64,000 nucleotides of DNA from Agelas oroides (lineage: Eukaryota > Porifera > Demospongiae > Agelasida > Agelasidae): assembly GCA_949130485.1 (NCBI GenBank), contig OX422191.1:4961754-5025753 (forward strand), written 5' to 3'. How positions within the stretch are numbered: position 1 is the first letter of the stretch; each line of letters begins with the position of its first letter. Positions 11,782-63,408 of this stretch are shown here, in pieces. A model generated the notes under the pieces. It worked only from the letters and a program-made list of their open reading frames with translations. It made no database searches and was not told the DNA's origin. The position numbers were made by a program, and so were the translations under genes.

Positions 11782-12143
11782 GGCCTTGGTAGATTATGCT
11801 CCAACTTCTACCCATTATTCTATTCTTTTATTCCCATAATTTTTACCTATTATTCTTTTCAATGCACCCATTATTCTCAATTATGCTAACTGAATTTCAC
11901 ACGTTCGTATGTATATACAAAATGACGATCCAAAATTGGTTACAGTTAGGCCTTTCTCGGTGATTGTATTCTAGCATTACTGAAAGTTGTACGTAGTCCT
12001 CCCAAAGAAAATTCTTGCTGTGAATAAAAGTAACTTCTTAATGGGATCTGATCAGGAAAATTGACCTATTATGCCAGCATAATTCTTGATGCTCAGAAGC
12101 ACCTATTATTCCCAAAATTATGCTAGCATAATCTACCAAAGCC
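11782..12143. mobile_element. TA-flanked AT-rich inverted-repeat element inside copy 1
   Basis: Ends GGCCTTGGTAGATTATGCT and AGCATAATCTACCAAAGCC, flanked by TA. Removing it restores the gctagggctaggg tract seen uninterrupted in copy 2, so insertion came after copy 1 was in place. Tc1/mariner-type target preference. Confidence 0.8.
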
Positions 12144-12829: not shown

Positions 12830-13316
12830 GGTCAGGGGCTGTGTTAGGATAAGGGCTTTAGACATGTGTATATATGTGGAGATGGATAAAGACAAGGTCT
12901 TTTGACTACAGTTGTCCTTCCTCTCACAGTTAGATACACTGTGGTAGCTAAGTGGAGATCCCCTGCGGACGGGGTTGTGGGCCTGGGTGGGTTGACTGTA
13001 CAATCACATTGCCTGAGCGGATACTTTCACTATCCACCACCTCAGACTCAGGCTCAATTATCTCTTAACCAAGGGGCTATCCTATGGTTAACTATGGAAA
13101 ATGGGAATGGGGTTGAGACAAGGAATTGAGATATTACTACATGCACAGTGGGAAGTCTAGCTTGGCAGTTATTGTTATGCTGTTTAGGTCTAGGGCATGC
13201 CTAAGGTGTTATGGTTGTTAGAACACATGCGTCTTCGGGTGGATCCATTGAAGGATGCTGCGGGTTCCCCATTTGGCAAGGCCGACTGACTTTATCTGTA
13301 CCTGCATGTTCAGAAG

Positions 13317-16590: not shown

Positions 16591-16674
16591 TCTAGCTCCT
16601 GAAGGCTCTGGTTAACTTGTAAAGCCTCACTAAGTGCACGGGCTCCTTCTTCTTTGATCTTGTTGTCCCAGAGA
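16591..16674 (-). CDS. LRR exon 19 (most 3' one found)
   Basis: 84 nt; acceptor ctacag, donor gtgagt. Reads L-W-D-N-K-I-K-E-E-G-A-R-A-L-S-E-A-L and Q-V-N-Q-S-L-Q-E-L. All LRR consensus positions are kept. Exons are numbered 5' to 3' along the minus strand. Confidence 0.85.
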
Positions 16675-22600: not shown

Positions 22601-25600
22601 CAGCGGGTCACAATTTAAAATGCACATGTACAAATTTGAAATGCATGTGTAACCATCCTATCCGTTCAATTCAAATTTCCGGTAAGTGGCTGCAAGCAAA
22701 CAAGCACGTACATTACAAACACACTTCCACAATGCACTCCCGCAATGCACTCCCGCTAGTGTGGGGCTCGCTCAGGCTCTCCCCAATAATGCAGGACCTA
22801 GCTATGTGTACATGTGCACACATGTAATCACAATGGTAACAGGGGAACTTGTACACCCCCAGCCCCACCTTTAAAATTACCAGTGATCAGTCTCAAGAAA
22901 AAGGCATGGGCATACCAAGTGGTCAGGCAGGTGAGGTTTTGGCCCAACCACTTTTTTGTGGACGTAACTTGCACATGCACACTTTGGATTATGTAGAGTT
23001 GAACATAGTAGCTACAAGCTGTATCAACCCTGAAAAGCTATCCAAAGCAATGCTGCATCATGATTTTGCGATATTTACAGTGAATTTGGTTCACTCTGTG
23101 GCAGTTTCTTTGCTAGCTGCCACAAAGCCAAAGATGCGACATGTTACCTACTACTGGCCAACACTAGCCTCATTCCCAGGCCACTCCCAAATTTTATCTC
23201 GCAGCTGTGGAGATAAATTGGGAGAAGGCCTGGTACCATTACTATGTCACGGACTGGAAATGGTGGACTTGGTTAGTATGTAATGTGTACTTGGTTTCAT
23301 AATGATGGCAATGTGACCACACAACATGCAGCCAGTACAGCAAGCAGTCAACAGTAAAGTTTGCCTAGACGTTTTGTCAACAGTTATGGACTTCTGGATG
23401 GTAAAACTTGGGGTGTGTGTTCAGTGCAGTCCTGTGCAAAATATATGCAAGAAAGCGCTACATCGAGTCCAGGGTACTACATAGCTAGAAATCTACTTCC
23501 AAATGGTGCATAGTATATACAATAGGCAGGTATGAAACAGCTAGCCTCTTTCCCAGGCCACTCCCAGATTTTATCTCCCAGCCGTGGAGAAAAATCGGGA
23601 GAAGGCCTGGTACCATTACTACGTAATGACGATAACGTGACAGTAAAGTTTGTCTAGACGTTTTGCCAACAGCTATGGACTTCGAAAGTACCAAGTCATC
23701 AACGAATGATGTGTAGACGTAAGTGGAAGGCATTATGCGTGCACGTTGACCGCAAGGAATCGGGAAAGCATGTGGCTGAGGGCAAGCGTGTCGCTCCGTG
23801 TCACAAGTATCTGCACTCAAGCCACTACCATCAAATAGGCTCAGAGCCTGGGCTAGAACGGCTTAGATAACTTGTACATACCTACAAGTAGCCTTGCCAT
23901 CTGTTTCTTTGTCCTTGATGATAGTGGCCCGAGTACAGACACTTGTTTTAAGCACGGAGAGATGCGCTTGCCCTCAGCCTGCTGCTTTTCTCAGATAATA
24001 GAAGTAAATGCCGATTTGAGGCATTGCATCAGGATTGAAGGGCGTTTGACGTTTCGCATAAACCAAAAAAATTAAACTTCAACCTCCACTGATTTTGTGG
24101 TTGTTAGCATGTTGATATAGTAAGACTTGTTTATGGTAAACTACAATGAATTTGCGACTTGGTTAATCAATGATTGCTCAGTTAAAATATGTACTTTGTC
24201 TTCAGTGCTTGCTCGAAGTGTGAAGGGTAAAGCAAAAACTGAGCTAAAATCAATTATGCCTTTACCACTCTGAGAATGGCTGTACTCACGTTAGCTTCTG
24301 AAGGCTGTGGTTCACTTGTAAAGCCTCACTAAGTGCACGGGCTCCTTTATCTTTGATCTGGTTCACATTGAGGCTGCAGAGTGTCAAAGAATGAGATGAG
24401 AGATGATTCATTAAACCTCTTCACTTTGTGTAAGGTATACCTGGTCTTGGTACATCACTGATGAGACACAGTATGAGACACTGTGTGTCAGTTTGTCAGT
24501 TAGTAAAGTAGTGTACCACTCCCAGTATGCTTGTTGTCACAGTCACTGGTGATTTATGGTGAATTAATATGAGCAGAGGGGGTATAACTAGTCTTGTGCC
24601 CCGCCCACGCACCTCCTGGCGAGAAACGGTCTGGTTGACGAAGTCGAATTTCTTGGGCTTATTACCCAAAACAGGTAATGACCAATGAGATTGCGAGATC
24701 GGTAATTATTACATAACACTTTCCTCACAACGGTAAAATTTCTTCATCTGCATTCGAGTATCCGTACCTTTTTTGAGCGGGTTGGCCGCAAAATATTTTG
24801 ATCGTTGCTAGGTTACGTTGTCACAAAAGCGTGCGCTAGCCCAAGAAATTCGACTTGGTTCACCAGACCGTTTCTCCTCGTGAGAGGGTGGGGTCTGGGG
24901 ACGAGACTAGGGTATAACGTGCATGGGGGTTCAGTCAGGCACTCTACTTGACACCACTACGTACATAACTGGTAAGTTGCCTGGGATGCTCCACTAGTAG
25001 GCGTATCATGGTATACCTACCCTAAAAATTACCAGTGCTCACAGTCTCAAGAGGAATGGGGGAAGGACAAGTATATTGTCCAGAGGAAGCAACTCAGACA
25101 ATCCTGCACCCTACAATGGCTCTCTCCCTCAATCACTTGATTTTAATGTCATCCAAACAATGAATTTGCTTACTAACAACTGTACACATCAGGGGTGGTA
25201 GAGGTAATTGGAAAGTGGTCAGCCTAGAGGCTGTTATGGGTGACTCAACACTTTGGGAAACACTGCATGTGCCATCAACTCCTCTCCCAAATTAGGACCT
25301 GAACAAGGCTACAGTCACAGTACACCACCTAAGAAGTTACACAGAATGGCTGGACTCACTTTAGCTTCTGAAGGCTCTGGCTCACTCGTAAAGCCTCACT
25401 AAGTGCACAGGCTCCTCCATCTGAGATGTGGTTGTACCTGAGGCTGCAGAATGTCCGAATACAAGAGATGAGGGGTGGTTGAACAAACCTCTTAAGGTAT
25501 ATTTGGTCTTGGTGCCTCACTACTGAGACAGTGTATCAGACACTGTGTGTCAGTTTGTCATTTAGTGAAGTGGAGAACTACTCCCTGTATGGTTACTGTC

Positions 25601-52600: not shown

Positions 52601-55600
52601 AAGTATAGTTGGCAAAATGGCACAAGATGTAGGGATGGTGTGAAATTGTTGTGGTGTCATTCCCATCTAGTTTGGTTGGTTTTTGAGGGTTCCATCCCTA
52701 CATGCACTTGTTTTCATTCAGAAAACTTTTTTGTGACTTTTATTCATATAATCACCGCACCCCCCTGTGGTGACATTCTTAGAACAAGAGATGACAGGTG
52801 GCTCAACAAACCTTCTCACTTTGTGTAAGGTATATTTGGTCTCGATACCTCACTACTGAGACACAGTATCAGACACTAGCTGTGTGTCAGTTTCTCAGTT
52901 ACTGAAGTAGAGGAGTAGCTACTCCCTGTGTGGTTACTGTCACAGTCACTGGTTGCATCATGATTACAAACACTGTTGCTACATGTGTACACCACGAACC
53001 AAAGCATCATTACAGACCAACAAAATTAGGACATGAAAGGTTAAACTCACTCTAGCTCCCGAAGGTTCTGGTTCACTTGCAAAGCTCCAGCCAATTCACA
53101 AGCTCCTTCAGCGGTGATCCGGTTACCACTGAGGCTGCAGAACAAGAGATAAGAGGTTGTTCAACAAACCTCTTCACTTGTCTCGGTACCTCACTACTGA
53201 GACACAGATCAGACACTGGGTGTCAGTTTGTCAACTAGTGAAGTAGAGGAGTACTCCCTGTGTGGTGAAGACAGAGGGGTCCTGTGCGCTCCCACACTCC
53301 TACAGACCTCACCCCTTAAAATTGCCAGTGAACAGGGAGGAATCAATGGGGGCGGACAAAAATATTGTGGAGAGGAAGCAACTAAGATAATGTTACATTC
53401 ATAAAATGGCCGTCTCTCCTCAAATCACCTTATTTTAACCGACTTATGTAAAATTGAATACCCAACAGCAGCTACTAAGTTCAACATCCAATAGGGTTAA
53501 CAGTAGATGCATAACTAACTTTAGCAGCCACTGATCCACAGACCCTACCTCTGAACGAGTTCTCTCCAAAGGCCTTGGGTTCATACATACCCCTAGAATA
53601 CCAAGCATAGAAAGCCTATTGTCTGATTTTGAGGGATTCTCCAGGTCCTTTAGAATCAAACATTTTTTTCATAAATAAGCCACTCCCACCCAAACACCTG
53701 TTCAAAGGTAAATTGGATTGGATCCCACCCTTATCTTCCAATCCTAGACTAGAGTCATACATCACATTCACTAAAACTCTCGTTGGAAGACAGGGATCTT
53801 CTCCCATTGCCCCGAGATATCATGTAAACATACTTTGACATAGTTTTCAAGTGCAATGTTTTCTCCTTCCACACACATGGGGAGGAGCCTGGGTACGAGG
53901 CTATATATACCAACAAATACAGGGAATGGCAATGCACACCAAGATGGCCCCCTCCTATGCCAACATCTTCATAGACACCTCAAGAGACGATTCCTTGAGA
54001 GTTAGCCCCTTCAACCAGCCCTCTGGAAGTGCTATATTCACGACATCCTCTGTGTATGGTCAGGTCCGAGGGAGTCACTAGAGGATTTCCTCCACAGACT
54101 CAATTCCTACTACCCAACCATACTCTTCACATGGACTATCTCCACAGACAGTATTGAGTTCCTGAACATAATTATATGTGTAATTAAGGATCTATAGGAT
54201 AAAAATCTCACACAACTCTTCTCTACTCTACAGCTCTGTTTTAGATGAGAAAAGGCACTCTCCTACCACATACTTTCTGCTAGGACACTTGGAAGACCAC
54301 CCCCCTACAACTGACGTTCCTCTGCTGATAGGTCCTAAAATCCTTTCATACAACGTCATCCATTCTAGCATTACACATCTACCCTTCTACCTCAATGATA
54401 CCTCCACCTGTAAAAGTACCAGCCTTATCTACTGCATCATCTGTTCTAAATGTTCCAAAATGTATGTGTACGACAAAATTCTAAATCTCTACTAAATCGC
54501 TTTGGCCACCATACATCTGCAGCAAAGGAGAAGAAGAAGAGCATCTGCTCCATCTACCACCATTTCAGCTCCGGAAGACTCAGCTTTGAGACGCACGCGA
54601 CAATCCTGCCTCTTGAACTTTGCCCCCCAAATCAGCTCCTGTCTCGTGAGATACACTGGATTAGGGCACTTAACACAGTCCTTCCCTTTGGTCTTAATTC
54701 CAAGTACTCTATAACATAGGGCTCCCTGAGTAACATGAGCATCTAGGCTACGATACACACGCCAGCTATTTCGCATAAGCGTGCTGCTTCCTTGCCTCTC
54801 ACCACTGAATCTCGCCAGCTTACCACTAGAGTTGAGAGCATCTGTCCACCTCGTGTTCTACGTTTGGCCGCCACCCGCCCATGGGCTACACCCTTGCATG
54901 ATCATGACACAGGGATGCAGGTAACCATGCAAGTGTATAGCAACAAATGTGTATAAGACAATGTTTGCAACTGTCACCAGCCCTCCCTACTATTTCAGCA
55001 CAGGCCTGGGAACAACACTACCATCTCAGTGTACACCTCTTAAGAAGTACAATATGAATGACTGGACTCACTTTAGCTTCTGAAGCGTCTGGTTCACTTG
55101 CAAAGCTCCAGCCATCACACAAGCTCCTTTGTCTGAGATTTTGTTGCCAGTGAGGCTGCAGAATGGCAGAGAACAAGAGATGACAGGTGGCTCAACAAAC
55201 CTTCTCACTTTGTGTAAGGTATATTTGGTCTCGATACCTCACTACTGAGACACAGTATCAGACACTAGCTGTGTGTCAGTTTCTCAGTTACTGAAGTAGA
55301 GGAGTAGCTACTCCCTGTGTGGTTACTGTCACAGTCACTGGTTGCATCATGATTACAAACACTGTTGCTACATGTGTACACCACGAACCAAAGCATCATT
55401 ACAGACCAACAAAATTAGGACATGAAAGGTTAAACTCACTCTAGGTCCCGAAGGTTCTGGTTCACTTGCAAAGCTCCAGCCAATTCACAAGCTCCTTCAG
55501 CGGTGATCCGGTTACCACTGAGGCTGCAGAACAAGAGATAAGAGGTTGTTCAACAAACCTCTTCACTTGTCTCGGTACCTCACTACTGAGACACAGATCA

Positions 55601-58600
55601 GACACTGGGTGTCAGTTTGTCAACTAGTGAAGTAGAGGAGTACTCCCTGTGTGGTGAAGACAGAGGGGTCCTGTGCGCTCCCACACTCCTACAGACCTCA
55701 CCCCTTAAAATTGCCAGTGAACAGGGAGGAATCAATGGGGGCGGACAAAAATATTGTGGAGAGGAAGCAACTAAGATAATGTTACATTCATAAAATGGCC
55801 GTCTCTCCTCAAATCACCTTATTTTAACCGACTTATGTAAAATTGAATACCCAACAGCAGCTACTAAGTTCAACATCCAATAGGGTTAACAGTAGATGCA
55901 TAACTAACTTTAGCAGCCACTGATCCACAGACCCTACCTCTGAACGAGTTCTCTCCAAAGGCCTTGGGTTCATACATACCCCTAGAATACCAAGCATAGA
56001 AAGCCTATTGTCTGATTTTGAGGGATTCTCCAGGTCCTTTAGAATCAAACATTTTTTTCATAAATAAGCCACTCCCACCCAAACACCTGTTCAAAGGTAA
56101 ATTGGATTGGATCCCACCCTTATCTTCCAATCCTAGACTAGAGTCATACATCACATTCACTAAAACTCTCGTTGGAAGACAGGGATCTTCTCCCATTGCC
56201 CCGAGATATCATGTAAACATACTTTGACATAGTTTTCAAGTGCAATGTTTTCTCCTTCCACACACATGGGGAGGAGCCTGGGTACGAGGCTATATATACC
56301 AACAAATACAGGGAATGGCAATGCACACCAAGATGGCCCCCTCCTATGCCAACATCTTCATAGACACCTCAAGAGACGATTCCTTGAGAGTTAGCCCCTT
56401 CAACCAGCCCTCTGGAAGTGCTATATTCACGACATCCTCTGTGTATGGTCAGGTCCGAGGGAGTCACTAGAGGATTTCCTCCACAGACTCAATTCCTACT
56501 ACCCAACCATACTCTTCACATGGACTATCTCCACAGACAGTATTGAGTTCCTGAACATAATTATATGTGTAATTAAGGATCTATAGGATAAAAATCTCAC
56601 ACAACTCTTCTCTACTCTACAGCTCTGTTTTAGATGAGAAAAGGCACTCTCCTACCACATACTTTCTGCTAGGACACTTGGAAGACCACCCCCCTACAAC
56701 TGACGTTCCTCTGCTGATAGGTCCTAAAATCCTTTCATACAACGTCATCCATTCTAGCATTACACATCTACCCTTCTACCTCAATGATACCTCCACCTGT
56801 AAAAGTACCAGCCTTATCTACTGCATCATCTGTTCTAAATGTTCCAAAATGTATGTGTACGACAAAATTCTAAATCTCTACTAAATCGCTTTGGCCACCA
56901 TACATCTGCAGCAAAGGAGAAGAAGAAGAGCATCTGCTCCATCTACCACCATTTCAGCTCCGGAAGACTCAGCTTTGAGACGCACGCGACAATCCTGCCT
57001 CTTGAACTTTGCCCCCCAAATCAGCTCCTGTCTCGTGAGATACACTGGATTAGGGCACTTAACACAGTCCTTCCCTTTGGTCTTAATTCCAAGTACTCTA
57101 TAACATAGGGCTCCCTGAGTAACATGAGCATCTAGGCTACGATACACACGCCAGCTATTTCGCATAAGCGTGCTGCTTCCTTGCCTCTCACCACTGAATC
57201 TCGCCAGCTTACCACTAGAGTTGAGAGCATCTGTCCACCTCGTGTTCTACGTTTGGCCGCCACCCGCCCATGGGCTACACCCTTGCATGATCATGACACA
57301 GGGATGCAGGTAACCATGCAAGTGTATAGCAACAAATGTGTATAAGACAATGTTTGCAACTGTCACCAGCCCTCCCTACTATTTCAGCACAGGCCTGGGA
57401 ACAACACTACCATCTCAGTGTACACCTCTTAAGAAGTACAATATGAATGACTGGACTCACTTTAGCTTCTGAAGCGTCTGGTTCACTTGCAAAGCTCCAG
57501 CCATCACACAAGCTCCTTTGTCTGAGATTTTGTTGCCAGTGAGGCTGCAGAATGGCAGAGAACAAGAGATGACAGGTGGCTCAACAAACCTTCTCACTTT
57601 GTGTAAGGTATATTTGGTCTCGATACCTCACTACTGAGACACAGTATCAGACACTAGCTGTGTGTCAGTTTCTCAGTTACTGAAGTAGAGGAGTAGCTAC
57701 TCCCTGTGTGGTTACTGTCACAGTCACTGGTTGCATCATGATTACAAACACTGTTGCTACATGTGTACACCACGAACCAAAGCATCATTACAGACCAACA
57801 AAATTAGGACATGAAAGGTTAAACTCACTCTAGCTCCCGAAGGTTCTGGTTCACTTGCAAAGCTCCAGCCAATTCACAAGCTCCTTCAGCGGTGATCCGG
57901 TTACCACTGAGGCTGCAGAACAAGAGATAAGAGGTTGTTCAACAAACCTCTTCACTTGTCTCGGTACCTCACTACTGAGACACAGATCAGACACTGGGTG
58001 TCAGTTTGTCAACTAGTGAAGTAGAGGAGTACTCCCTGTGTGGTGAAGACAGAGGGGTCCTGTGCGCTCCCACACTCCTACAGACCTCACCCCTTAAAAT
58101 TGCCAGTGAACAGGGAGGAATCAATGGGGGCGGACAAAAATATTGTGGAGAGGAAGCAACTAAGATAATGTTACATTCATAAAATGGCCGTCTCTCCTCA
58201 AATCACCTTATTTTAACCGACTTATGTAAAATTGAATACCCAACAGCAGCTACTAAGTTCAACATCCAATAGGGTTAACAGTAGATGCATAACTAACTTT
58301 AGCAGCCACTGATCCACAGACCCTACCTCTGAACGAGTTCTCTCCAAAGGCCTTGGGTTCATACATACCCCTAGAATACCAAGCATAGAAAGCCTATTGT
58401 CTGATTTTGAGGGATTCTCCAGGTCCTTTAGAATCAAACATTTTTTTCATAAATAAGCCACTCCCACCCAAACACCTGTTCAAAGGTAAATTGGATTGGA
58501 TCCCACCCTTATCTTCCAATCCTAGACTAGAGTCATACATCACATTCACTAAAACTCTCGTTGGAAGACAGGGATCTTCTCCCATTGCCCCGAGATATCA

Positions 58601-61600
58601 TGTAAACATACTTTGACATAGTTTTCAAGTGCAATGTTTTCTCCTTCCACACACATGGGGAGGAGCCTGGGTACGAGGCTATATATACCAACAAATACAG
58701 GGAATGGCAATGCACACCAAGATGGCCCCCTCCTATGCCAACATCTTCATAGACACCTCAAGAGACGATTCCTTGAGAGTTAGCCCCTTCAACCAGCCCT
58801 CTGGAAGTGCTATATTCACGACATCCTCTGTGTATGGTCAGGTCCGAGGGAGTCACTAGAGGCTTTCCTCCACAGACTCAATTCCTACTACCCAACCATA
58901 CTCTTCACATGGACTATCTCCACAGACAGTATTGAGTTACTGAACATAATTATATGTGTAATTAAGGATCTATAGGATAAAAAATCTCACACAACTCTTC
59001 TCTACTCCACAGCTCTGTTTTAGATGAGAAAAGGCACTCTCCTACCACATACTTTCTGCTAGGACACTTGGAAGACCAACCCCCTACAACTGACGTTCCT
59101 CTGCTGATAGGTCCTAAAATCCTTTCATAGAACGTCATCCATTCTAGCATTACACATCTACCCTTCTACCTCAATGATACCTCCACCTGTAAAAGTACCA
59201 GCCTCATCTACTGCATCATCTGTTCTAAATGTTCCAAAGTGTATGTGTACAACAAACTTCTAAATCTCTACTAAATCACTTTGGCCACCATATGTACATC
59301 AGCAGCAAAGGAGAAGAGGAAGAGCATCTGGTCCATCTACCGCCATTTCAGCTCTGGAGGACTCAGCTTTGAGAAGCACGCGACAATCCTGCCTCTTGAA
59401 CTTTGCCCCCAAAATCAGTTCCTGTCTCACGAGATACACTGGATTAGGGCACTTAACACAGTCCTTCCCTTTGGTCTTAATTCCAAGTACTCTATAACAT
59501 AGGGCTCCCTGAGTAACATGAGCATCTAGGCTATGATACACATGCCAGCTACTTCGCGTAAGCGCACTGCTTCCTCGCCTCTCACCACTGAATCTCGCCA
59601 GCCTACCACTAGCGTTGAGAGCATCTGTCCACCTCGTGTTCTACGTTTGGCCCCCACCCGCCCATGGCCTACACCCTTGCATGATCATGACTCAGGGTTG
59701 CAGGTAACCATGCAAGTCTATAGTGACAAATGTGTAAGACAATGTTTGCAACTGTCACCAGCCCTCCCTACTATTTCAGCACAGGCCTGGGAACAACACT
59801 ACCATCTCAGTGTACACCTCTTAAGAAGTACAATATGAATGACTGGACTCACTTTTGCTTCTGAAGCGTCTGGTTCACTTGCAAAGCTCCAGCCATCACA
59901 CAAGCTCCTTTGTCTGAGATTTTGTTGCCAGTGAGGCTGCAGAATGTCAGAGAACAAGAGATGACAGGTGGCTCAACAAACCTTCTCACTTTGTGTAAGG
60001 TATATTTAGTCTCGATACCTCACTACTGAGACACAGTATCAGACACTAGCTGTGTGTCAGTTTCTCAGTTACTGAAGTAGAGGAGTAGCTACTCCCTGTG
60101 TGGTTACTGTCACAGTCACTGGTTGCATCATGATTACAAACACTGTTGCTACATGTGTACACCACGAACCAAAGCATCATTACAGACCAACAAAATTAGG
60201 ACACGAAAGGTTAAACTCACTCTAGCTCCCGAAGGTTCTGGTTCACTTGCAAAGCTCCAGCCATCACACAAGCTCCTTCATCTGAGATCTGGTTCCAACT
60301 GAGACTGCAGAATGTCAGAGAACAAGAGATGACAGGTGGCTCAACAAACCTTCTCACTTTGTGTAAGGTATATTTGGTCTCTATACCTCACTACTGAGAC
60401 ACAGTATCAGACACTAGCTGTGTGTCAGTTTCTCAGTTACTGAAGTAGAGGAGTAGCTACTCCCTGTGTGGTTACTGTCACAGTCACTGGTTGCATCATG
60501 ATTACAAACACTGTTGCTACATGTGTACACCACGAACCAAAGCATCATTACAGACCAACAAAATTAGGACATGAAAGGTTAAACTCACTCTAGCTCCCGA
60601 AGGTTCTGGTTCACTTGCAAAGCTCCAGCCAATTCACAAGCTCCTTCAGCGGTGATCTGGTTACCACGGAGGCTGCAGAACAAGAGATAAGAGGTTGTTC
60701 AACGAACCTCTTCACTTGTCTCGGTACCTCACTACTGAGACATGTACAGATCAGACACTGGGTGTCAGTTTGTCAACTAGTGAAGTAGAGGAGTACTCCC
60801 TGTGTGGTGAAGACAGAGGGGTCCTGTGCACTTCCACACTCACACAGACCTCACCCCTTAAAATTGCCAGTGAACAGGGAGGAATCAATGGGGGCGGACA
60901 AAAATATTGTGGAGAGGAAGCAACTAAGATAATGTTACATTCATAAAATGGCCGTCTCTCCCCAAATCACCTTATTTTAACCGACTTATACAAAATTGAA
61001 TACCCAACAGCAGCTACTAAGTTCAATATCCAATAGGGTTAACAGTAGATGCATAACTAACTTTAGCAGCCACTGATCCACAGACCCTACCTCTGAACGA
61101 GTTCTCTCCAAAGGCCTTGGGTTCATACATACCCCTAGAATACCAAGCATAAAAAGCCTATTGTCTGATTTTTAGGGATTCTCCAGGTCCTTCAGAATCA
61201 AACATTTTTCTCATAACTAAGCCACTCCTACCCAAACACCTGTTCAAAGGTAAATTGGATTGGATCCCACCCTTATCTTCCAATCCTAGACTAGAGTCAT
61301 ACATCACATTCACTAAAACTCTCTTTGGAAGACAGGGATCTTCTCCCATTGCCCCGAGATATCATGTAAACATACTTTGACATAGTTTTCAAGTGCAATG
61401 TTTTCTCCTTCCACACACATATCTACCAACAAATATAGGGAATGGCACCAAGATGGCCCCCTCCTATGCCAACATCTTCATAGACACCTCAAGAGACGAT
61501 TCCTTGAGAGTTAGCCCCTTCAACCAGCCCTCTGGAAGTGCTATATTCACGACATCCTCTGTGTATGGTCAGGTCCGAGGGAGTCACTAGAGGCTTTCCT

Positions 61601-63408
61601 CCACAGACTCAATTCCTACTACCCAACCATACTCTTCAAATGGACTATCTCCACAGACAGTATTGAGTTCCTGAACATAATTATATGTGTAATTAAGGAT
61701 CTATAGGATAAAAAATCTCACACAACTCTTCTCTACTCTACAGCTCTGTTTTAGATGAGAAAAGGCACTCTCCTACCACATACTTTCTGCTAGGACACTT
61801 GGAAGACCACCCCCCTACAACTGACGTTCCTCTGCTGATAGGTCCTAAAATCCTTTCATACAACGTCATCCATTCTAGCATTACACATCTACCCTTCTAC
61901 CTCAATGATACCTCCACCTGTAAAAGTACCAGCCTTATCTACTGCATCATCTGTTCTAAATGTTCCAAAATGTATGTGTACGACAAAATTCTAAATCTCT
62001 ACTAAATCGCTTTGGCCACCATACATCTGCAGCAAAGGAGAAGAGGAAGACCATCTGGTCCATCTACCGCCATTTTAGCTCTGGAAGACACAGCTTTGAG
62101 ACGCACGTGACAATCCTGCCTCTTGAACTTTGCCCCCCAAATCAGCTCCTGTCTCGTGAGAAAAACTAGATTAGGGCACTTAACACAGTCCTTCCCTTTG
62201 GTCTTAATTCCAAGTACTCTATAACATAAGGCTTCCTGAGTAACATGAGCATCTAGGCTACGATACACACGCCAGCTACTTCGCGTAAGCGCGCTGCTTC
62301 CTCGCCTCTCACCACTGAATCTCGCCAGCCTACCACTAGCGTTGAGAGCATCTGTCCACCTCGTGTTCTACGTTCGGCCCCCACCCGCCCATGGCCTACA
62401 CCCTTGCATGATCATGACACAGGGATGCAGGTAACCATGCAAGAATATAGTGACAAATGTGTATAAGACAATGTTTGCAACTGTCACCAGCCCTCCCTAC
62501 TATTTCAGCACAGGCCTGGGAACAACACTACCATCTCAGTGTACACCTCTTAAGAAGTACAACATGAATGACTTGACTTACTTTAGCTTCTGAAGTGTCT
62601 GGTTCACTTGCAAAGCTCCAGTTACTGCACAAGCTCCTTTGTGTGAGATCTTGTTGTGACTGAGGCTACAGAACATCAGAGAACAAGAGATGACAGGTGG
62701 CTGACTTTGTGTAAGGTATATTTGGTTTCTATACCTCACTACTGAGACACAGTATCAGACACTAGCTGTGTGTCAGTTTCTCAGTTACTGAAGTAGAGGA
62801 GTAGCTACTCCCTGTGTGGTTACTGTCACAGTCACTGGTTGCATCATGATTACAAACACTATTGCTACATGTGTACACCAGGAACCAAAGCATCATTACA
62901 GACCTACAAAATTAGGACATGAAAGGTTAAACTTAGCCTTGTTCCCAGGCCTTTCCCTTTTTTTTTTTGTTCTTCGGTTTGCGTTCAGTATAATGTAAAA
63001 GGCAAACCGAAGAACAAATGTGGCAGTCCCATGTAGAAATCGAAGGTTATTCCGTCACGTATTTCGACTGCATCACTGCTTTCGAAGCACCGTATCGCTG
63101 AACTTCCGTTAAGGGCGGGGCTCATACGTGCTTCGTAGATGCATGAATATGTAATCAATCTATGAAGCGTATATGAGCCCTGCCCTTAACGGAAGTTCAG
63201 TGATACAGCGCTTCGAAAGCAGCGATGCAGTCGAAATACGCAACGGAATAACCTTCGATTACTACACGGGACTGCCACAAATAAAAACGGAGGAGGCCTG
63301 GGAACGAGGCTAGGTTAAACTCACTCTAGCTCCTGAAGGCTCTGGTTCACTTGCAAAGCTTCAGCCAATTCACGAGCTCCTTCAGCGGTGATCTGGTTAC
63401 CACGGAGG
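16591..63408 (-). CDS. NLR/ribonuclease-inhibitor-type LRR gene, 3' portion: 19 single-repeat exons
   Basis: Nineteen exons on the minus strand each encode one LRR of the pattern L-x-x-N-x-I-x-x-x-G-A-x-x-L-x-x-A-L-x-V-N-x-x-L-x-x-L. Every exon is preceded by an AG acceptor (usually ttctgcag) and followed by gtgag or gtaag. Each starts with one base that completes a codon and ends with two, so all introns have the same phase and exons can be skipped or duplicated in frame. The 28-residue RI-like repeat is the kind found in NLR-type innate immune receptors (NLRC3-like), where it forms a ligand- or partner-binding solenoid. No NACHT, CARD or DEATH region is in the window; the 5' exons would lie beyond the right edge. 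Introns are 0.3 to 10 kb and full of mobile elements, so this could be one gene or more than one similar gene in series. Confidence 0.8.
17174..17339. repeat. long hairpin repeat
   Basis: tatgattagtataattaacag at the left pairs with ctgttacttgttaatcata at the right. Arms of about 75 bp meet at gcacgaggcgaagtcgag. Palindromic element in the LRR intron; no clear target duplication. Confidence 0.8.
17400..17560. repeat. 62-bp tandem repeat
   Basis: tatagtttaca-c/g-aaattgttgtc-cttacaagttac units recur two to three times between about 17424 and 17560, the last one diverging after aaattgct. Confidence 0.75.
18001..18290. repeat. 94-bp tandem repeat, three copies
   Basis: Units starting actggtgg at 18001, 18094 and 18189, each with gacagtttagtgactattga-type sequence and gaatggcaatggtaag at the end. 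Copies 2 and 3 are nearly identical. Confidence 0.9.
18445..18517. repeat. perfect 27-bp inverted repeat (hairpin)
   Basis: tagttgcaatacccagacgg and the next 7 bases pair exactly with 18491-18517; the 19-nt loop includes gccccgcaggggc, itself palindromic. It directly abuts the putative left end of the Crypton-like element at 18518. Confidence 0.9.
18541..18833. repeat. direct duplication downstream of the recombinase gene
   Basis: tttgtatagtgaccaaa through gagaagcaca-tccc-cagggtgc is present twice (18541-18660, 18677-18833). The second copy is longer because an internal segment with gaaaacaggaatca is repeated. Confidence 0.85.
18836..20095 (-). CDS. Crypton-type tyrosine recombinase (DUF3504-like), catalytic part
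   Basis: 419 open codons; the conserved part begins around residue 40 with W-A-K-G-V-F-K-S-W, the N-terminal SAM-like/core-binding segment shared by Cryptons and the DUF3504 domains of ZMYM2, KCTD1 and QRICH1. The catalytic domain shows F-C-L-R-G-V-H-E-H (first arginine), N-H-S-L-R-A-T-G-A-T (H-x-x-R), G-H-K-S-L-D-A-L-R-T-Y (histidine and tyrosine nucleophile), so the R...HxxR...H...Y set looks complete. Such enzymes cut and rejoin DNA through a covalent tyrosine link. It overlaps the end of the upstream proline-rich frame (19947-20660) in another frame, near an A-rich tract (about 19975-19985), so the two are probably one protein separated by a one-base shift, sequencing error or frameshift. 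It could be a transposon gene or a host-domesticated relative. Confidence 0.85.
   Translation of the reverse strand: MISTNVSLSFHHQMRGLPTLYLLLHWINCANLSFQFRQKNNNNWAKGVFKSWITSRNASTEEKYPADLLEVRHPFHVIERTLAAFVIEARRVNGNHYPGTTLKNIMAALFRVMKENQGAANVTSFVEKTSREKYYPQLNASLDRQLRMLRNSGIGTERKRAEVITADIEAQMWAEGVLGFHSPQALLCTIFFYNGKNFCLRGVHEHFNLRFSQIHRTTNPDEYTYTEFGSKNHPGGIADHSEGKIVSIIATGTPNCHVGILDFYLSKVPQNVVKEGGKFYLSPLPFTPTGMRPWFFTDPYPQKKIQGLLKKMCQEAKIEGNFTNHSLRATGATVLFNAGVPENLIQKRTGHKSLDALRTYERVTPSQDHAVAQILSSSTTLPYNIAKGKADVLLVQPNFPISSADREFLDNLPADAYPF
19947..20522 (-). CDS. proline-rich N-terminal region of the Crypton-like protein
   Basis: Open from an ATG at 20660, but M-W-S-I-D-D-I-L-K-P-P at 20522 is an alternative start without the hydrophobic leader-like stretch. 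About 190 residues, rich in P, S and T, with repeated T-P-P-P-S-P-S/R-x-P-P and K-P-F-V-P-P/V motifs, so probably disordered. The last residues (Q-T-K-K-Q-Q-Q-L-G-K-R-C-F) are the other-frame reading of the DNA that encodes N-N-N-N-W-A-K-G-V-F in the recombinase. I infer a single original protein of roughly 600 residues. Confidence 0.6.
   Translation of the reverse strand: MWSIDDILKPPQTRAPNFLPTPPPSPSVPPATVVYHTLPRAPGDTLKQIQSPSTNISTPPPSPRAPPAPYAYRALPGSTPNRLHPYRKAIINPLPHPSRFLPLANIDSSANSATISTQNHLPFTPVHPGQHFPPRFASPVPVSDQYQCKPFVPPPNARFANPVPSAALDQLCKPFVPVQTKKQQQLGKRCF
20891..21977. other. interval without recognised gene; short tandem repeats
   Basis: Overlapping open frames on both strands between 20966 and 21470 show no family features. 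From about 21565 to 21800 a degenerate 65-70 bp unit (tctagcctggc-gcctggcctcagg-tgctc-gctgttctgctctcgtgg) repeats three to four times. Confidence 0.55.
21978..22615. mobile_element. inverted-repeat element, about 640 bp
   Basis: aattgtgacccgctgagc at the left pairs with gctcagcgggtcacaatt at the right, with further matching to about 40 bp. No coding capacity recognised and no convincing target duplication, so the class is unknown. Confidence 0.7.
22616..24289. other. LRR intron region with duplicated segments
   Basis: 22790-22910 matches the intron block right of exon 17 (25760-25870), so it is an LRR-block remnant without an exon. A hairpin with tagcctc-ttcccaggccact is present at 23166 and again at 23543, and acagtaaagttt-tctagacgttttg at about 23353 and 23640, indicating a local duplication of about 300-400 bp. 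Confidence 0.6.
24290..24373 (-). CDS. LRR exon 18
   Basis: 84 nt; acceptor ctgcag, donor gtgagt. L-N-V-N-Q-I-K-D-K-G-A-R-A-L-S-E-A-L then Q-V-N-H-S-L-Q-K-L. Ends in AC where most exons end in AA or GA, so the first residue of the next repeat would change from N/D to T. Confidence 0.85.
24589..24909. mobile_element. 321-bp inverted-repeat element with exact 9-bp target duplication
   Basis: TAGTCTTGTGCCCCGCCCAC at the left and its imperfect inverse ending GGGGACGAGACTA at the right; inverted repeats of about 70 bp including aagtcgaatttcttgggct. GGGTATAAC flanks both sides (24580-24588, 24910-24918). Inserted in the conserved intron block of LRR exon 18. Same terminal style as the TAGCC family. 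Confidence 0.9.
25360..25443 (-). CDS. LRR exon 17
   Basis: 84 nt; ctgcag acceptor, gtgagt donor. L-R-Y-N-H-I-S-D-G-G-A-C-A-L-S-E-A-L, then R-V-S-Q-S-L-Q-K-L (serine in place of the usual asparagine). Confidence 0.85.
26396..26764. mobile_element. 369-bp inverted-repeat element
   Basis: taaactcggcagcataagt pairs with acttgtgctcccgagttta. Flanks tggtactg / tggtatgg could be a decayed 8-bp duplication. Interior has several gggtacttatattc-like repeats. It separates sequence that is contiguous in other LRR blocks. Confidence 0.65.
27229..27615 (+). repeat. dispersed repeat, plus-strand copy
   Basis: Resembles 14760-15200 and 48115-48345. Contains ccctacaaggtgaga followed by ccacccacctccccctgtcc and tttctgctgatgcagaacc. 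No protein recognised. Confidence 0.6.
27895..27978 (-). CDS. LRR exon 16
   Basis: 84 nt; ctgcag acceptor, gtgagt donor. L-S-G-N-Q-I-K-E-K-G-A-H-A-L-S-E-A-L, then Q-V-N-K-S-L-Q-E-L. Complete consensus. Confidence 0.85.
28327..28653. mobile_element. hAT-like non-autonomous element with internal tandem repeats
   Basis: Ends ATGGGGCGTCGTCTGTAAC and GTTACAGACGGTGCCCCAT; AGCTATGT flanks both sides (28319-28326, 28654-28661), an 8-bp duplication typical of hAT. The middle (about 28354-28575) is an array of gatgctactttataa-type units of about 20 bp. No transposase. Confidence 0.8.
28770..29089. mobile_element. TAGC...GGCTA family member, about 320 bp
   Basis: TAGCATCATTCCCAGACC at the left and GAGCCTGGGAACGAGGCTA at the right. 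The flanks do not match, so the element is old or rearranged. It lies after the same gagcagaggggg intron motif that hosts the 24589 insertion. Confidence 0.55.
29515..29945. repeat. degenerate tandem repeat, five units of about 75-98 bp
   Basis: Each unit has the order tctgt-cacaatt-tagga-aaaacagctatacactta followed by ct-gcttacgaaagca. Flanked on both sides by related segments with tttcaggaatttat (29381 and 30007), so the whole may be one element. Confidence 0.75.
30071..30313. mobile_element. TGGCAGTCCC hairpin element, copy 1
   Basis: tggcagtcccgaatagaaat at the left is inverted at the right; nearly the whole 243 bp folds into one hairpin, with ggggcggagctcatac and gtatgagccccgccc pairing near the centre. 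The same family is at 63020-63278 (full) and as half copies near 30619 and 49184. Confidence 0.88.
30455..31000. repeat. LRR block duplicate, copy 1 (partner 49010-49545)
   Basis: About 540 bp left of LRR exon 15, closely similar to the sequence left of exon 11, including a truncated TGGCAGTCCC hairpin element at 30619-30720. The block was duplicated with its exon. Confidence 0.85.
31004..31553. mobile_element. insertion of about 550 bp absent from the partner block
   Basis: Present between gtgtagctttatcact and gcaatgtatcattactgtag here but missing at 49540-49560. It begins near tgccagaaat and ends near atttctggca, which are inverted. So this is an insertion after block duplication, or a deletion from the other copy. 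Confidence 0.6.
31626..31709 (-). CDS. LRR exon 15
   Basis: 84 nt; acceptor cttgcag, donor gtgagt. L-S-R-N-K-I-T-D-K-G-A-C-A-L-A-T-A-L, then Q-V-N-Q-S-L-Q-K-L. Sister of exon 11 (49617) with only a few differences. Confidence 0.85.
32083..32172 (-). CDS. LRR exon 14, 90-nt variant
   Basis: Two codons longer than the others near its 3' end (K-L-R-L in place of K-L), still in frame; acceptor ctgcag, donor gtaagt. L-S-E-N-G-I-L-D-G-C-V-C-V-L-V-E-A-L, so the usual G-A-x-A-L is replaced by G-C-V-C-V-L. Looks like a drifting repeat or one under relaxed constraint. Confidence 0.75.
32406..32521. repeat. direct repeat near the DIRS-like fossil (partner 38037-38163)
   Basis: aatgaggtttaagtcttagtt through tgtgactatttttcct recurs at 38037-38163 with substitutions and a short length difference. 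Whether it belongs to the fossil element or is independent is not known. Confidence 0.75.
32560..35580 (+). mobile_element. DIRS-like tyrosine-recombinase retrotransposon, broken fossil
   Basis: Parts in order on the plus strand: a gag-like leader region (about 32.56-33.75 kb), a reverse transcriptase/RNase H region (about 33.95-34.7 kb) recognisable by its Y-L-D-D palm motif and the F-L-G-I-L-L-D...L-P-D-N-K-L block, and a tyrosine recombinase region (about 34.95-35.57 kb) with the F-G-F-P-R-C-G-K-F and K-Q-S-K-T-D-P-F-R-K-G motifs of DIRS elements. Clearly broken, with roughly ten or more interruptions, and no terminal repeats identified, so it is an old, inactive copy. It sits in an intron of the LRR gene in the opposite orientation. 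Confidence 0.75.
35590..36075. other. spacer between DIRS fossil and THAP relic
   Basis: No gene. A short duplication (tatggtattaggaggtgtata at about 35667 and 35688) and a gcgcgcgcgcgc run at about 35966-35977. Confidence 0.5.
36100..36290 (+). pseudogene. THAP-type zinc finger relic
   Basis: One frame reads G-G-Y-T-C-C-V-P-G-C-Y-S-N-K-A-R, the start of a THAP domain (C-x2-4-C). A neighbouring frame continues with D-Q-E-L-S-F-H-K-F-P-S-A-N-A and then a stop, which is the following THAP segment (F-H-x-F-P). One frame change near 36241 separates them, and the histidine end of the domain is missing. THAP fingers bind DNA and occur at the start of P-element transposases as well as in host regulators. 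A partial TAGCC-family end (gggaacgaggcta at about 36452) lies downstream. Confidence 0.6.
36792..37478. mobile_element. 687-bp element with ctggactg-rich inverted ends, exact 9-bp target duplication
   Basis: GGTCGTCTCTAATTGCTGGA at the left; the right end is its imperfect inverse ending gattagatacgacc. Both ends are built from repeated ctggactg/cagtccag units. GCTGAGAGG flanks both sides (36783-36791, 37479-37487). No transposase recognised. Confidence 0.88.
37826..38475. repeat. tandem duplication of about 445 bp with poly-G run
   Basis: tggccagtcatt-gt-aggc through gagtcagtggt-ctaa-aatggtta is present at 37830-38020 and again at 38275-38450. In the second copy a gtagggggg stretch has become a G tract of 20 + 9 bases (38284-38313), which may be unstable or a sequencing artefact. 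Confidence 0.8.
38799..39387 (-). mobile_element. TA-flanked Tigger-like non-autonomous element
   Basis: CCGTAGTTTGGGAAAATTTCG at the left and its inverse at the right, flanked by TA on both sides. Subterminal segments (tttcgcgt, gtccgaaaaattttt) are also inverted. Inserted in composite A, since composite B is contiguous here (gttctttctactatc). Carries the small ORF at 38954-39208. Confidence 0.82.
38954..39208 (-). CDS. small ORF resembling the N-terminus of Tigger-type element proteins
   Basis: 84 codons from M-S-I-R-T-Y-L-K-P-K, then D-G-L-P-N-P-K-G-P-L-S and I-P-S-Q-A-I-A-L-A-N, a pattern I associate with short leaders of Tc1/pogo-type transposon proteins in basal animals. Nothing of the HTH or DDE core follows; the rest (L-A-L-R-Q-L-L-P-S-I-L) does not match. 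Probably a 5' remnant kept in a deletion derivative. Start chosen at the second ATG because the family pattern begins there. Confidence 0.5.
   Translation of the reverse strand: MSIRTYLKPKDGLPNPKGPLSQSIPSQAIALANIEVAKATRDKSKKQHNDRENCGAPSHKLALRQLLPSILPDKCASRSLWAFT
39495..40062. mobile_element. foldback part of composite A
   Basis: Inverted arms 39495-39625 and 39929-40062 (aagtcacaaagttttctgaa at the left, its inverse at the right; both contain catgtagggatgg). The loop holds C-rich, CA-rich sequence without a gene. Confidence 0.85.
40289..41054 (-). mobile_element. TA-flanked inverted-repeat element carrying a HIRAN gene
   Basis: Ends CCGTAGTGTCCCGCTAATAC and the inverse TATTAACGGGACACTACGG, with TA on both sides. 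The ends are followed by G/C homopolymer-rich stretches (ccgccccccccc, gggggggcc). 766 bp in all, with no transposase but one intact small gene on the minus strand. Confidence 0.85.
40527..40889 (-). CDS. HIRAN-domain small protein, 120 aa
   Basis: Start chosen at M-A-T-T-F-R-I-E-S (40889), since the family pattern begins there; the frame is open further upstream. Almost the whole protein is one HIRAN-like domain: R-G-H-H-V-Y-K-A-A-W-S-P, then I-G-E-E-L-P-V-Q-R-E, N-N-I-H-D-D-F-T-V-A-V, N-G-N-T-V-G-H-V-P-R-E-I-S, and G-D-R-R-R-S near the end. HIRAN domains in HLTF/Rad5 proteins bind DNA ends or stalled forks. Stand-alone versions are known in invertebrate mobile elements, where the role is unclear. 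It is uninterrupted inside a transposon that otherwise has no enzyme, which suggests useful cargo or a recent deletion derivative. Confidence 0.8.
   Translation of the reverse strand: MATTFRIESTVRGHHVYKAAWSPYIGEELPVQREVNNIHDDFTVAVLKNGNTVGHVPREISRVCWYFLHKSGSEMTCIVNGDRRRSEVDGKGLVVPCVYIFRGKQKHLDRLINLFAKLAA
41382..41640 (-). other. possible exon segment with donor site, related to 63770-63960
   Basis: On the minus strand an open stretch with A-V-N-E-K-S-Q-R-H-Y-T-Q ends at a gtaagc donor (41376-41381). A diverged relative lies at the right edge of the window, also ending in gtaagc. Conservation of the splice site in both suggests a duplicated exon or promoter-proximal block, but no protein family is recognised. 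Confidence 0.35.
42039..42119 (-). CDS. LRR exon 13, 81-nt variant
   Basis: One codon shorter near the 3' end (N-L-K-L in place of S-L-Q-K-L), still in frame; ctgcag acceptor, gtgagt donor. L-R-S-N-E-I-S-A-D-G-V-L-V-L-A-G-A-L. The canonical G-A is G-V here. Confidence 0.78.
42750..43115. other. LRR block remnant without exon
   Basis: The part with agctaagactggaattatgaaagtgaa and catgcaaaatgtgctctg matches segments left of exons 19 and 16 (16245-16420, 26060-26240), but the satellite-rich copy 3 starts where the exon-proximal sequence would follow. Confidence 0.55.
43128..43947 (-). mobile_element. satellite-rich dispersed element, copy 3 (inverted)
   Basis: Reverse complement starts at ttgtgtgtcgagtgggg and runs through the 24-bp array (43748-43850), the GC-rich hairpin block, and the TTCCGTAAGGCTGAGCTAGGG end, where it stops without the 30-bp array seen in copies 1 and 2. 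Confidence 0.82.
44629..46326 (+). mobile_element. pogo/Tigger-like relic, 1.7 kb, TA-flanked
   Basis: AGGTAGGGGAGGGTAATT at the left and AATTACCCCACCCTACCT at the right, flanked by TA. A short frame from the ATG at 45080 reads M-P-R-Q-N-I-R-K-R-Q-R-L-K-W-N-A-E-D-L-K, like the first helix of pogo/psq-type HTH domains (R-K-R-x-x-W-x-x-E-D-L-x-x-A), then reaches a stop after 24 codons. Further open pieces (45325-45672) are not assignable. Decayed DNA transposon. Confidence 0.65.
46723..46806 (-). CDS. LRR exon 12
   Basis: 84 nt; ctgcag acceptor, gtgagt donor. L-N-G-N-Q-I-K-D-E-G-A-H-T-L-S-E-A-L, then R-V-N-Q-S-L-Q-E-L. Followed to the right by the conserved intron block also seen at exons 16-19. 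Confidence 0.85.
47170..48110. other. intron interval without recognised features
   Basis: Unique-looking AT-rich intron sequence. A short frame at 47237-47425 has no family features. Confidence 0.5.
48115..48345 (+). repeat. dispersed repeat, second plus-strand copy
   Basis: Shares ccctacaaggtga, tggcccaccc, cccacctccccctgtcccac and tggccaaaatcaga with the copies at 27.4 and 15.0 kb. Its right end is cut by the piggyBac-like insertion at 48372. Confidence 0.6.
48372..48997. mobile_element. piggyBac-like non-autonomous element, second family (626 bp)
   Basis: TTAA at 48368-48371 and 48998-49001 flanks CTCTTTGCACGC and GCGTGCAAAGAG. Subterminal repeats of gcagatttatatgcatacg-type (about 48388 and 48429) are present. 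No transposase. Its ends differ from the 8325 element, so it depends on a different enzyme or variant. Confidence 0.82.
49010..49545. repeat. LRR block duplicate, copy 2 (partner 30455-31000)
   Basis: Near-identical to the block next to exon 15, including the truncated TGGCAGTCCC hairpin element at 49184-49270. So that element inserted before the block was duplicated. Confidence 0.85.
49617..49700 (-). CDS. LRR exon 11
   Basis: 84 nt; ctgcag acceptor, gtgagt donor. L-S-R-N-E-I-T-D-K-G-A-C-A-L-G-T-A-L, then Q-V-N-H-S-L-Q-K-L. Sister of exon 15. Confidence 0.85.
50645..51145 (+). CDS. YW(K/E)DPE tandem-repeat protein, about 166 aa
   Basis: Start chosen at M-S-E-R-N-E-R-R-T-S (50645); an upstream in-frame ATG at 50606 is also possible. 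Seven repeats of Y-W-K/E-D-P-E-x-K/G-R-A, spaced 15 or 19 residues (45 or 57 nt), the longer spacing adding R-A-S-S or R-V-S-S. It ends with a basic segment, K-A-A-K-A-K-L-K-W-Y-R-R. Repeats of the Y-x-x-D-P-E-K-x-R-A type are familiar from poorly characterised proteins of sponges and cnidarians, often beside mobile-element genes; no function is established. The antisense strand is also open for 197 codons, a result of the repeat period; the sense strand has the family pattern and is preferred. It belongs to composite element B. Confidence 0.6.
   Translation: MSERNERRTSRTTCETKGKKRQASRNNYWKDPEKHRASSRASSHACYWKDPETKRASSHACYWKDPETKRASSHTRYWEDPETKRASSRASSHTRYWEDPEKGRAASRVSSHTRYWEDPEKGRAASCVSSHSSYWRNPDKKRAAARMTNLKAAKAKLKWYRRYYAS
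51921..52739. mobile_element. foldback part of composite B
   Basis: Inverted arms 51921-52055 and 52605-52739, nearly perfect over 135 bp (aagtcacaaaaaagttttct at the left). The loop contains the 195-bp element at 52246. Homologous to 39495-40062, the right boundary being exact: A and B diverge directly after gtgactt. Confidence 0.88.
52246..52440. mobile_element. 195-bp element with 9-bp target duplication and captured core
   Basis: TAGTCTCACAAGCCAGACCC and its inverse at the right; the inverted repeats extend about 68 bp. ATTCAAGAC flanks both sides (52237-52245, 52441-52449). The central 58 bp (taagaatcgtcataaatgct and onward) is the inverse of sequence in composite elements A (38715-38775) and B (51736-51810), so a host-element fragment lies inside the hairpin. 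Confidence 0.88.
53051..53134 (-). CDS. LRR exon 10 (type B)
   Basis: 84 nt; ctgcag acceptor, gtgagt donor. L-S-G-N-R-I-T-A-E-G-A-C-E-L-A-G-A-L, then Q-V-N-Q-N-L-R-E-L. Type B of the tandem array. Confidence 0.85.
53629..54718 (+). mobile_element. Penelope-like retroelement fragment, block 1
   Basis: Pieces in order: an N-terminal segment with W-I-P-P-L-S-S-N-P-R-L-E-S-Y-I, a reverse transcriptase segment with K-M-A-P-S-Y-A-N-I-F and E-D-F-L-H-R-L-N-S-Y, and a C-terminal segment with Y-C-I-I-C-S-K-C and I-R-A-L-N-T-V-L-P-F-G-L-N, typical of the GIY-YIG endonuclease part of Penelope elements. Much of the polymerase is missing, so it is a truncated, inactive copy. Opposite in orientation to the LRR exons. 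It was amplified as a passenger of the tandem block. Confidence 0.75.
55072..55155 (-). CDS. LRR exon 9 (type A)
   Basis: 84 nt; acceptor ctgcag, donor gtgagt. L-T-G-N-K-I-S-D-K-G-A-C-V-M-A-G-A-L, then Q-V-N-Q-T-L-Q-K-L. Type A of the array. Confidence 0.85.
55440..55523 (-). CDS. LRR exon 8 (type B)
   Basis: Same as exon 10 except the final E-L is D-L (one substitution at 55446). Confidence 0.85.
56018..57107 (+). mobile_element. Penelope-like fragment, block 2
   Basis: Virtually identical to the block 1 copy at an offset of 2389 bp; same truncated segments. Confidence 0.75.
57461..57544 (-). CDS. LRR exon 7 (type A)
   Basis: Identical in reading to exon 9. Confidence 0.85.
57829..57912 (-). 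CDS. LRR exon 6 (type B)
   Basis: Identical in reading to exon 10. Confidence 0.85.
58407..59501 (+). mobile_element. Penelope-like fragment, block 3
   Basis: Same layout; the right half (after about 58860) carries scattered differences from blocks 1 and 2, while the left half is nearly identical to them, hinting at gene conversion or a recent crossover within the array. Confidence 0.75.
59853..59936 (-). CDS. LRR exon 5 (type A)
   Basis: As exon 9, but the last leucine of L-Q-K-L is glutamine (cttttgc on the plus strand in place of ctttagc), which would disturb one hydrophobic core position. Splice sites intact. Confidence 0.83.
60221..60304 (-). CDS. LRR exon 4 (A/B hybrid)
   Basis: L-S-W-N-Q-I-S-D-E-G-A-C-V-M-A-G-A-L as in type A, then Q-V-N-Q-N-L-R-E-L as in type B. 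A hybrid created in the 368-bp sub-duplication; acceptor ctgcag, donor gtgagt. Confidence 0.85.
60589..60672 (-). CDS. LRR exon 3 (type B)
   Basis: L-R-G-N-Q-I-T-A-E-G-A-C-E-L-A-G-A-L, then Q-V-N-Q-N-L-R-E-L; splice sites intact. Confidence 0.85.
61171..62222 (+). mobile_element. Penelope-like fragment, block 4
   Basis: The most diverged of the four copies. It lacks the gggaggagcctgggtacgaggct stretch that blocks 1-3 carry at about 53879, 56268 and 58657, a TAGCC-family end. Confidence 0.75.
62582..62665 (-). CDS. LRR exon 2 (type A, diverged)
   Basis: 84 nt; acceptor ctgtag, donor gtaagt. L-S-H-N-K-I-S-H-K-G-A-C-A-V-T-G-A-L, then Q-V-N-Q-T-L-Q-K-L. Confidence 0.83.
62934..63312. mobile_element. 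TAGCC-family element with 9-bp target duplication, itself holding another element
   Basis: TAGCCTTGTTCCCAGGCC at the left, GGCCTGGGAACGAGGCTA at the right. GGTTAAACT flanks both sides exactly (62925-62933, 63313-63321). The outer element contains a hairpin (ttgttcttcggtttgc and inverse, 62970-63016) and the 259-bp element at 63020. It ends 12 bp from LRR exon 1. Confidence 0.9.
63020..63278. mobile_element. TGGCAGTCCC hairpin element, copy 2
   Basis: gtggcagtcccatgtagaaa at the left pairs along the whole length with the right half; aaat on both sides may be the target duplication. Same family as 30071-30313. Inserted into the TAGCC element, so it is the younger of the two. Confidence 0.88.
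63325..63408 (-). CDS. LRR exon 1 (most 5' one found)
   Basis: 84 nt; acceptor ctacag, donor gtgagt. L-R-G-N-Q-I-T-A-E-G-A-R-E-L-A-E-A-L, then Q-V-N-Q-S-L-Q-E-L. The donor survives although a 379-bp element inserted 12 bp downstream in the transcript direction. Confidence 0.85.

Follow-up and report, generated by a model that had tools for sequence, protein, structure and literature searches.

What kind of gene, if any, is encoded by a long series of short, near-uniform LRR exons in the sponge Agelas oroides, and how did so many copies of one module come to lie side by side? The window, the whole 64,000-nt stretch of A. oroides DNA that was analysed, carries 19 single-LRR exons, all on the minus strand and together spanning positions 16591-63408 (Table 1). 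With a probability of roughly 0.7, these exons are the LRR-coding part of one receptor-like gene that has been growing by unequal exchange and has been diversified by selection. Such a gene would be read leftward, with its 5' end beyond the right window edge, and each exon would contribute a single RI-type repeat (about 28 residues), equivalent to one turn of the solenoid. The exons would presumably be expressed as a single gene, whose product may bind ligands.

Table 1. Positions of the LRR exons, of the duplicated units that contain them and of an element between them, numbered along the window
Feature	Position	Strand	Description
E01	63325..63408	-	A type, 84 nt
E02	62582..62665	-	B type, 84 nt
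E03	60589..60672	-	A type, 84 nt
E04	60221..60304	-	84 nt; apparent crossover product
E05	59853..59936	-	B type; differs from E07 and E09 by one nonsynonymous change (L/Q)
E06	57829..57912	-	A type, 84 nt
E07	57461..57544	-	B type, 84 nt
E08	55440..55523	-	A type; D/E difference from E10
E09	55072..55155	-	B type, 84 nt
E10	53051..53134	-	A type, 84 nt
E11	49617..49700	-	K type, nearest E15
E12	46723..46806	-	L type, 84 nt
E13	42039..42119	-	81 nt, 3 nt shorter, in frame
E14	32083..32172	-	90 nt, 6 nt longer, in frame
E15	31626..31709	-	K type, 84 nt
E16	27895..27978	-	L type, 84 nt
E17	25360..25443	-	L type, 84 nt
E18	24290..24373	-	L type, 84 nt
E19	16591..16674	-	L type; last exon found within window
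u1	52781..55169	-	E10, E09, 1.9-kb retroelement-like intron
u2	55170..57558	-	E08, E07
u3	57559..59950	-	E06, E05
u4	60319..62666	-	E03, E02; most divergent of the four units
One-exon tandem repeat, 368 bp	59847..60680	-	E03-E05; 2.3 copies
Retroelement-like remnant, possibly Penelope-like	53611..54716	+	long intron of u1, antisense to exons

The exons were delimited by profile searches, which were used in place of regular-expression scans for the LRR motif that had proved too noisy. A nucleotide profile was seeded with seven exons, which had been located through four typed exon starts; it was then iterated over the window with nhmmer. This gave 25 matches at E values up to 10, of which 19 were strong (E 2.6e-25 to 3.6e-17) and all of those on the minus strand, the next candidate standing at E 0.14. 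When a protein profile was run against the six-frame stretches of at least 15 aa, its top 19 matches were the same 19 exons, the 19th at E 6.4e-08 and the 20th at E 0.31; this profile had been built from 17 exons, and the two of odd length (E13 and E14) were recovered even though they had been omitted from it. Seventeen exons measure 84 nt, one 81 nt and one 90 nt. An AG acceptor precedes each of the 19, and the donor is GTGAGT in 17 cases and GTAAGT in 2. An exact consensus of the acceptor plus the exon start fits 8 of the 19 exons, matches no other site in the window and none in 100 shuffles, and had no match in the viral or genome contig collections that were scanned. An Rfam scan of the window at gathering thresholds also returned no match. 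The initial annotation of this DNA had described a 19-exon array with these three lengths and a common intron phase, and the searches confirm it, with an extent and coordinates that agree.

The reading frame is open in every exon when the first base is taken to complete a codon begun in the preceding exon; provided that the exons are joined, all 18 introns are then phase 2. The codons formed at the 361 ordered exon-exon junctions are D in 171 cases, N in 171 and T in 19, with no stops, and the initial annotation was therefore correct in stating that any exon could be skipped or duplicated without cost to the frame. Within the strand segment, conserved leucines lie on either side of the phase-2 boundary, a placement that would turn the exons into interchangeable modules. 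It had also been suggested that the locus might use this freedom in splicing, and regulated exon skipping would indeed yield receptors with differing LRR numbers from an array whose 361 junctions all keep the frame and form a sense codon; by analogy, published precedents are the skipping of NLRP3 exon 5 (PMC6642158) and the multiple splice variants of LRR exons in brown algal ROCO genes (PMC11378527). We nevertheless consider such a generator of splice diversity rather unlikely: frame neutrality follows already from the duplication of phase-2 exons, and all 19 donors, being GTGAGT or GTAAGT, are near the consensus, as would suit constitutive splicing.

Joined in order, the exons encode 532 aa of the form LxxNxIxxxGAxxLxxAL-VNxxLxxL. 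The initial annotation had proposed a comparison with LRR_6 or RI-type profiles, and the joined 532 aa match Pfam LRR_6 at E 1e-105. Among the best 60 of 94 PDB matches are ribonuclease inhibitor, RI-like, LRRC34-like and NLRP7/NLRP structures, together with 5irl/5irm, whose chains are labelled uncharacterized in the PDB match table and which we take to be NOD2. As judged from the predicted protein, the repeats are of the RI class of LRR, a class common to NLRs and other RI-type proteins. The array thus has the RI-type LRRs of NLRs, a feature that is not NLR-specific, and it has the NOD/NLRC arrangement of one 28-aa LRR per frame-preserving exon (exactly 84 nt in 17/19); the gene may belong to the NLRs. 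Some unrelated Pfam models, YycC and DUF2100 among them, also exceed their cutoffs when the repeats are summed, while no single stretch passes, and these matches are taken as repeat noise. Of the 287 stop-to-stop ORFs with at least 60 aa, 18 were scanned with Pfam; they gave no match to NACHT, the start of the gene lying outside the window, and no match to ROC or COR, most of the gene possibly lying beyond it. Between E01 and the window edge, a distance of 592 nt, there is no minus-strand open stretch of more than 47 aa, and no start, stop or further domain of the array gene was found within the window.

The stretches between the exons contain ORFs for a recombinase and for a HIRAN protein as well as retroelement-like sequence, which counts against the favoured reading. 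The array might instead comprise two or more adjacent LRR genes, or the ends of such genes. A split could fall, for example, between E13 and E14, where the gap is the largest in the array (9866 nt), is bordered by the two exons of odd length, and contains on the same strand as the exons a 173-aa ORF that matches HIRAN (40530-41048, minus strand; E 2.1e-06). This arrangement is doubtful, however, in that phase and frame remain matched across the gap; moreover, its two longest minus-strand open stretches are the 173-aa HIRAN ORF and one of 165 aa with no Pfam match, and between them they provide no large exon able to begin a second NLR-type gene.

The growth of the single-gene array that we favour can be followed most clearly between positions 52781 and 62666, where four 2.4-kb units each pair an A with a B exon and include a long intron (about 1.9 kb). 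On sequence comparison, these four units are products of tandem duplication, and together with the 368-bp one-exon repeat, which separates u4 from u3, they make visible the germline duplication that the initial annotation had supposed. The units u1 and u2 show 1 difference in 2389 positions, an exonic one that gives the D/E difference between E08 and E10. Between u1 and u3 there are 38 differences outside the exons and 1 within them, between u1 and u4 50 outside and 13 within; in all, the comparisons with u3 and u4 show 38 to 56 differences outside exons, together with 3 to 6 indels. Eleven of the 13 exon differences between u1 and u4 are in one 84-nt B exon, as against a maximum of 8 in 2008 non-exon windows, while the remaining exon windows are ordinary (0, 1, 2 and 2 differences, numbers that 45 to 100% of the non-exon windows reach). 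The excess in this B exon could reflect either selection or a short conversion tract. In the 368-bp copies around E04 and E05, the differences (17/368) consist of 14/84 in the exon and 3/284 elsewhere. It is improbable that the near-identical 2.4-kb units are in part an artefact of assembly, as the single difference between u1 and u2 might suggest, given that the differences in the u3 and u4 comparisons and between the 368-bp copies argue that several copies are real.

The exon E04 has a composite structure. Its middle (nt 35-69) is B-like and departs from E05 at a single position; the last segment and the downstream intron are A-like, and the first 34 nt are nearest to E12 (6 differences) and not close to either A or B exons. 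The join between middle and end is apparently explained by unequal crossing over inside the exon core, probably a single intra-exon crossover. Growth in the germline would have proceeded by unequal exchange of both the 2.4-kb two-exon units and the 368-bp one-exon units. In a tree without support values, the older exons comprise a K pair (E11 and E15) and an L group (E12 and E16-E19). The order K-L appears twice, as E11-E12 and as E15-E16, a recurrence that points to an earlier duplication of a block of two exons.

Substitutions among the exons were counted on a minimum spanning tree of all 19, using the first 23 codons (139 substitutions), and the neutral expectation for nonsense and splice changes took the observed transition bias into account. 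On this spanning tree 6.15 nonsense changes were expected and none was observed (P 0.0018), and at the four splice dinucleotide bases 8.06 changes were expected and again none was observed (P 0.0003). Nine exon pairs contain no indels in 756 exon bases, as against 14.2 expected, and their flanks hold 24 in 1274 aligned bases; these pairs were chosen for alignable upstream flanks, share members and lack E13 and E14, so that the figures are indicative. The exons of the nine pairs are of equal length and were compared ungapped, and the gapped alignments of eight of the nine are also gap-free in the exon. The two exon length changes that do occur, in E13 and E14, are both found close to the end of the exon and involve a multiple of three nucleotides. 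The 19 exons look like selected coding sequence, in which purifying selection would preserve the frame, the core residues and the splice sites.

When the repeat is taken as a whole, the ratio of nonsynonymous to synonymous change over all 23 codons is 0.81, indistinguishable from 1 (p 0.28), and pairwise ratios lie between 0.56 (all 19 exons) and 1.11 (L group). Fixing omega at 1 in an IQ-TREE codon model worsens the log-likelihood by 0.2 units (MG) or by 0.9 units (GY, with kappa also fixed). With a whole-repeat ratio near 1 and a negligible cost for omega at 1, no selection is visible unless positions are split. The concave strand positions of LRRs usually contact ligands. Once positions were split, in 20 comparisons (5 classes x 4 subsets) that followed 3 earlier ones, on a tree that ignores recombination and with classes that follow the canonical LRR motif but were defined after position variability had been seen, the canonical motif positions stood at 0.20 of the pooled synonymous rate (8.5/318.5 nonsynonymous, p 9e-7), six strand/loop positions at 1.71 of the synonymous rate (p 0.006), concave positions 2, 3, 5 and 7 at 2.02 (45/169.7 nonsynonymous, p 6e-4), and the helix positions at 0.71 (p 0.13). 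The directions for the motif and the concave positions repeat in three subsets, namely without E13 and E14, in the K and L exons, and in the A and B exons. The older K and L exons alone have 0 of 104 nonsynonymous at motif positions, and the young A and B exons alone show the concave excess at p 0.054. The pattern is consistent with selection that would favour change at the concave positions, where the ligand contacts of the product may lie.

The proposition that the exons as a whole outpace the introns was tried and dropped. Divergence is higher in the exon than in the flank in 7/9 of the chosen pairs (115/756 vs 117/1274, p 5e-5), but this result is carried by E05, the three E05 pairs giving 55/252 in the exon vs 29/430 in the flank and the other six pairs 60/504 vs 88/844, and among L-type exons the exon is less conserved than the flank in just 4/10 pairs. 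In E11/E15 and in 5 pairs with E13 or E14 the exon is the better conserved part, and the flanks are barely alignable.

A decaying, unexpressed graveyard of exons that are open by chance, or the several truncated, unexpressed copies that the initial annotation had named as its counter-case, is a poor candidate, because the whole-repeat ratio that is not clearly below 1 and the many repeats in the introns, which would fit it, are set against 19 exons without a stop, frameshift or splice-site loss, against zero stops, splice losses and (in the nine pairs) indels where about 6, 8 and 14 were expected, and against canonical positions that are strongly conserved, above all in the older K and L exons.

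The principle of the array is that of NOD/NLRC, Tetrahymena and brown algal genes, and in repeat length per exon it fits NOD/NLRC. According to a paper on human NLRs (PMC6642158), LRR exons there are frame-preserving, with their boundary at a fixed point of the beta-strand, and in most NOD and NLRC genes each such exon encodes a single LRR of 28 aa. The array and the NOD/NLRC genes have in common one 28-aa RI-type LRR per exon, preservation of the frame and the fixed strand boundary; the NOD/NLRC exons sit in NACHT-domain genes, whereas the start of the array gene lies outside the window, and the array is distinguished by introns of 284 to 9866 nt and by visible recent duplications of two exons. 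Since the layout is usual for NOD and NLRC genes (PMC6642158), the array is less surprising than the initial annotation implied, although what it said of frame neutrality and germline duplication stands.

A study of Tetrahymena LRR genes (PMC6564038) describes tandem 90-bp exons with phase-2 introns, whose growth by unequal crossing over was proposed, and retrotransposon copies that adjoin the repeat units. The array resembles these genes in its tandem single-repeat LRR exons with phase-2 introns (18/18 between array exons), in the growth by unequal crossover proposed for it and in its adjoining retroelement-type sequence. It differs in having 84-nt exons in place of exons of exactly 90 bp (1/19 is 90 nt), in being a single locus and in a remnant that is retroelement-like and not established as a LINE. 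Brown algal LRR-ROCO genes (PMC11378527) likewise carry one LRR per phase-2 exon, of 72 bp, and show exon shuffling, multiple splice variants and positively selected positions. The single LRR per phase-2 exon is common to these genes and the array, but 0/19 array exons are 72 nt, the algal LRRs have 23 aa and another consensus, and the algal genes carry ROC-COR, for which the 18 scanned ORFs of the window gave no match. The difference in exon length is the reason for not classing the array as of the Tetrahymena or the brown algal type. Among the literature titles and abstract openings listed, none was found to describe the present locus or an exon array of NLRs in a sponge, and others may exist; the main text of a paper on Dysidea avara NLRs (PMC12909245) is without the strings "exon", "intron" and "splic".

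While its layout is already known in kind, the array holds an unusually legible record of recent growth. It would represent a modular receptor domain caught while growing, with copies of clearly different age adjoining one another. Within one species, such a series could be used to measure how fast single LRRs are added, by what mechanism and with what selective value. The array also gives a further example of a gene layout resembling the phase-2 LRR exons of Tetrahymena and brown algae and the exons with one LRR each in NLRs. A more speculative extension, to which we give little weight, is that an early-branching animal keeps here a germline bank of LRR modules, from which exchange, selection on the concave face and exon skipping would together produce a partly VLR-like repertoire without somatic recombination. 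If this were true, exchange in the retroelement-bearing introns and in the exon cores would alter repeat number and make chimeric repeats on the time scale of populations.

The antisense retroelement-like sequence in the introns of the 2.4-kb units recurs with the units themselves, KMAPSYAN-type and CSKC motifs being present once per unit in all four long introns. We assume that these motifs are those of Penelope-like elements; the sole Pfam support for the remnant is GIY-YIG at E 0.11, below the cutoff. A further ORF, of 419 aa (18839-20095, minus strand), lies on the same strand as the exons in the E18-E19 intron and matches DUF3504 (E 6.2e-30) and Phage_integrase (E 7.4e-11). By these matches it is a tyrosine recombinase, probably encoded by a transposon, and a role as a rearrangement enzyme was set aside, a transposon gene being the simpler explanation. 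On the plus strand, 34298-35278 is a broken reverse-transcriptase-like stretch with a YLDD motif, presumably the reverse-transcriptase motif, and three of its ORFs have no reverse-transcriptase match in Pfam. At the left end of the window, an ORF that leaves the window (1-453, minus strand) has weak, below-cutoff matches to transposase-type helix-turn-helix domains.

Several other repeats are present. A dispersed 0.8-kb family, with internal 24-bp tandem repeats and about 87-88% identity, has copies at 10988-11789, 13315-14162 and 43123-43949, one of them inverted. A 51-bp tandem repeat occupies 3293-3724 in 8.3 copies, with several frames open, and 45/57-bp tandem repeats at 50725-51075 lie inside an open plus-strand frame of 185 aa with YWKDPE-type repeats. 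Finally, the E01-E02 intron contains a palindromic sequence (63019-63279) that is 87% self-complementary and is related to sequence near 30.1-30.3 kb.
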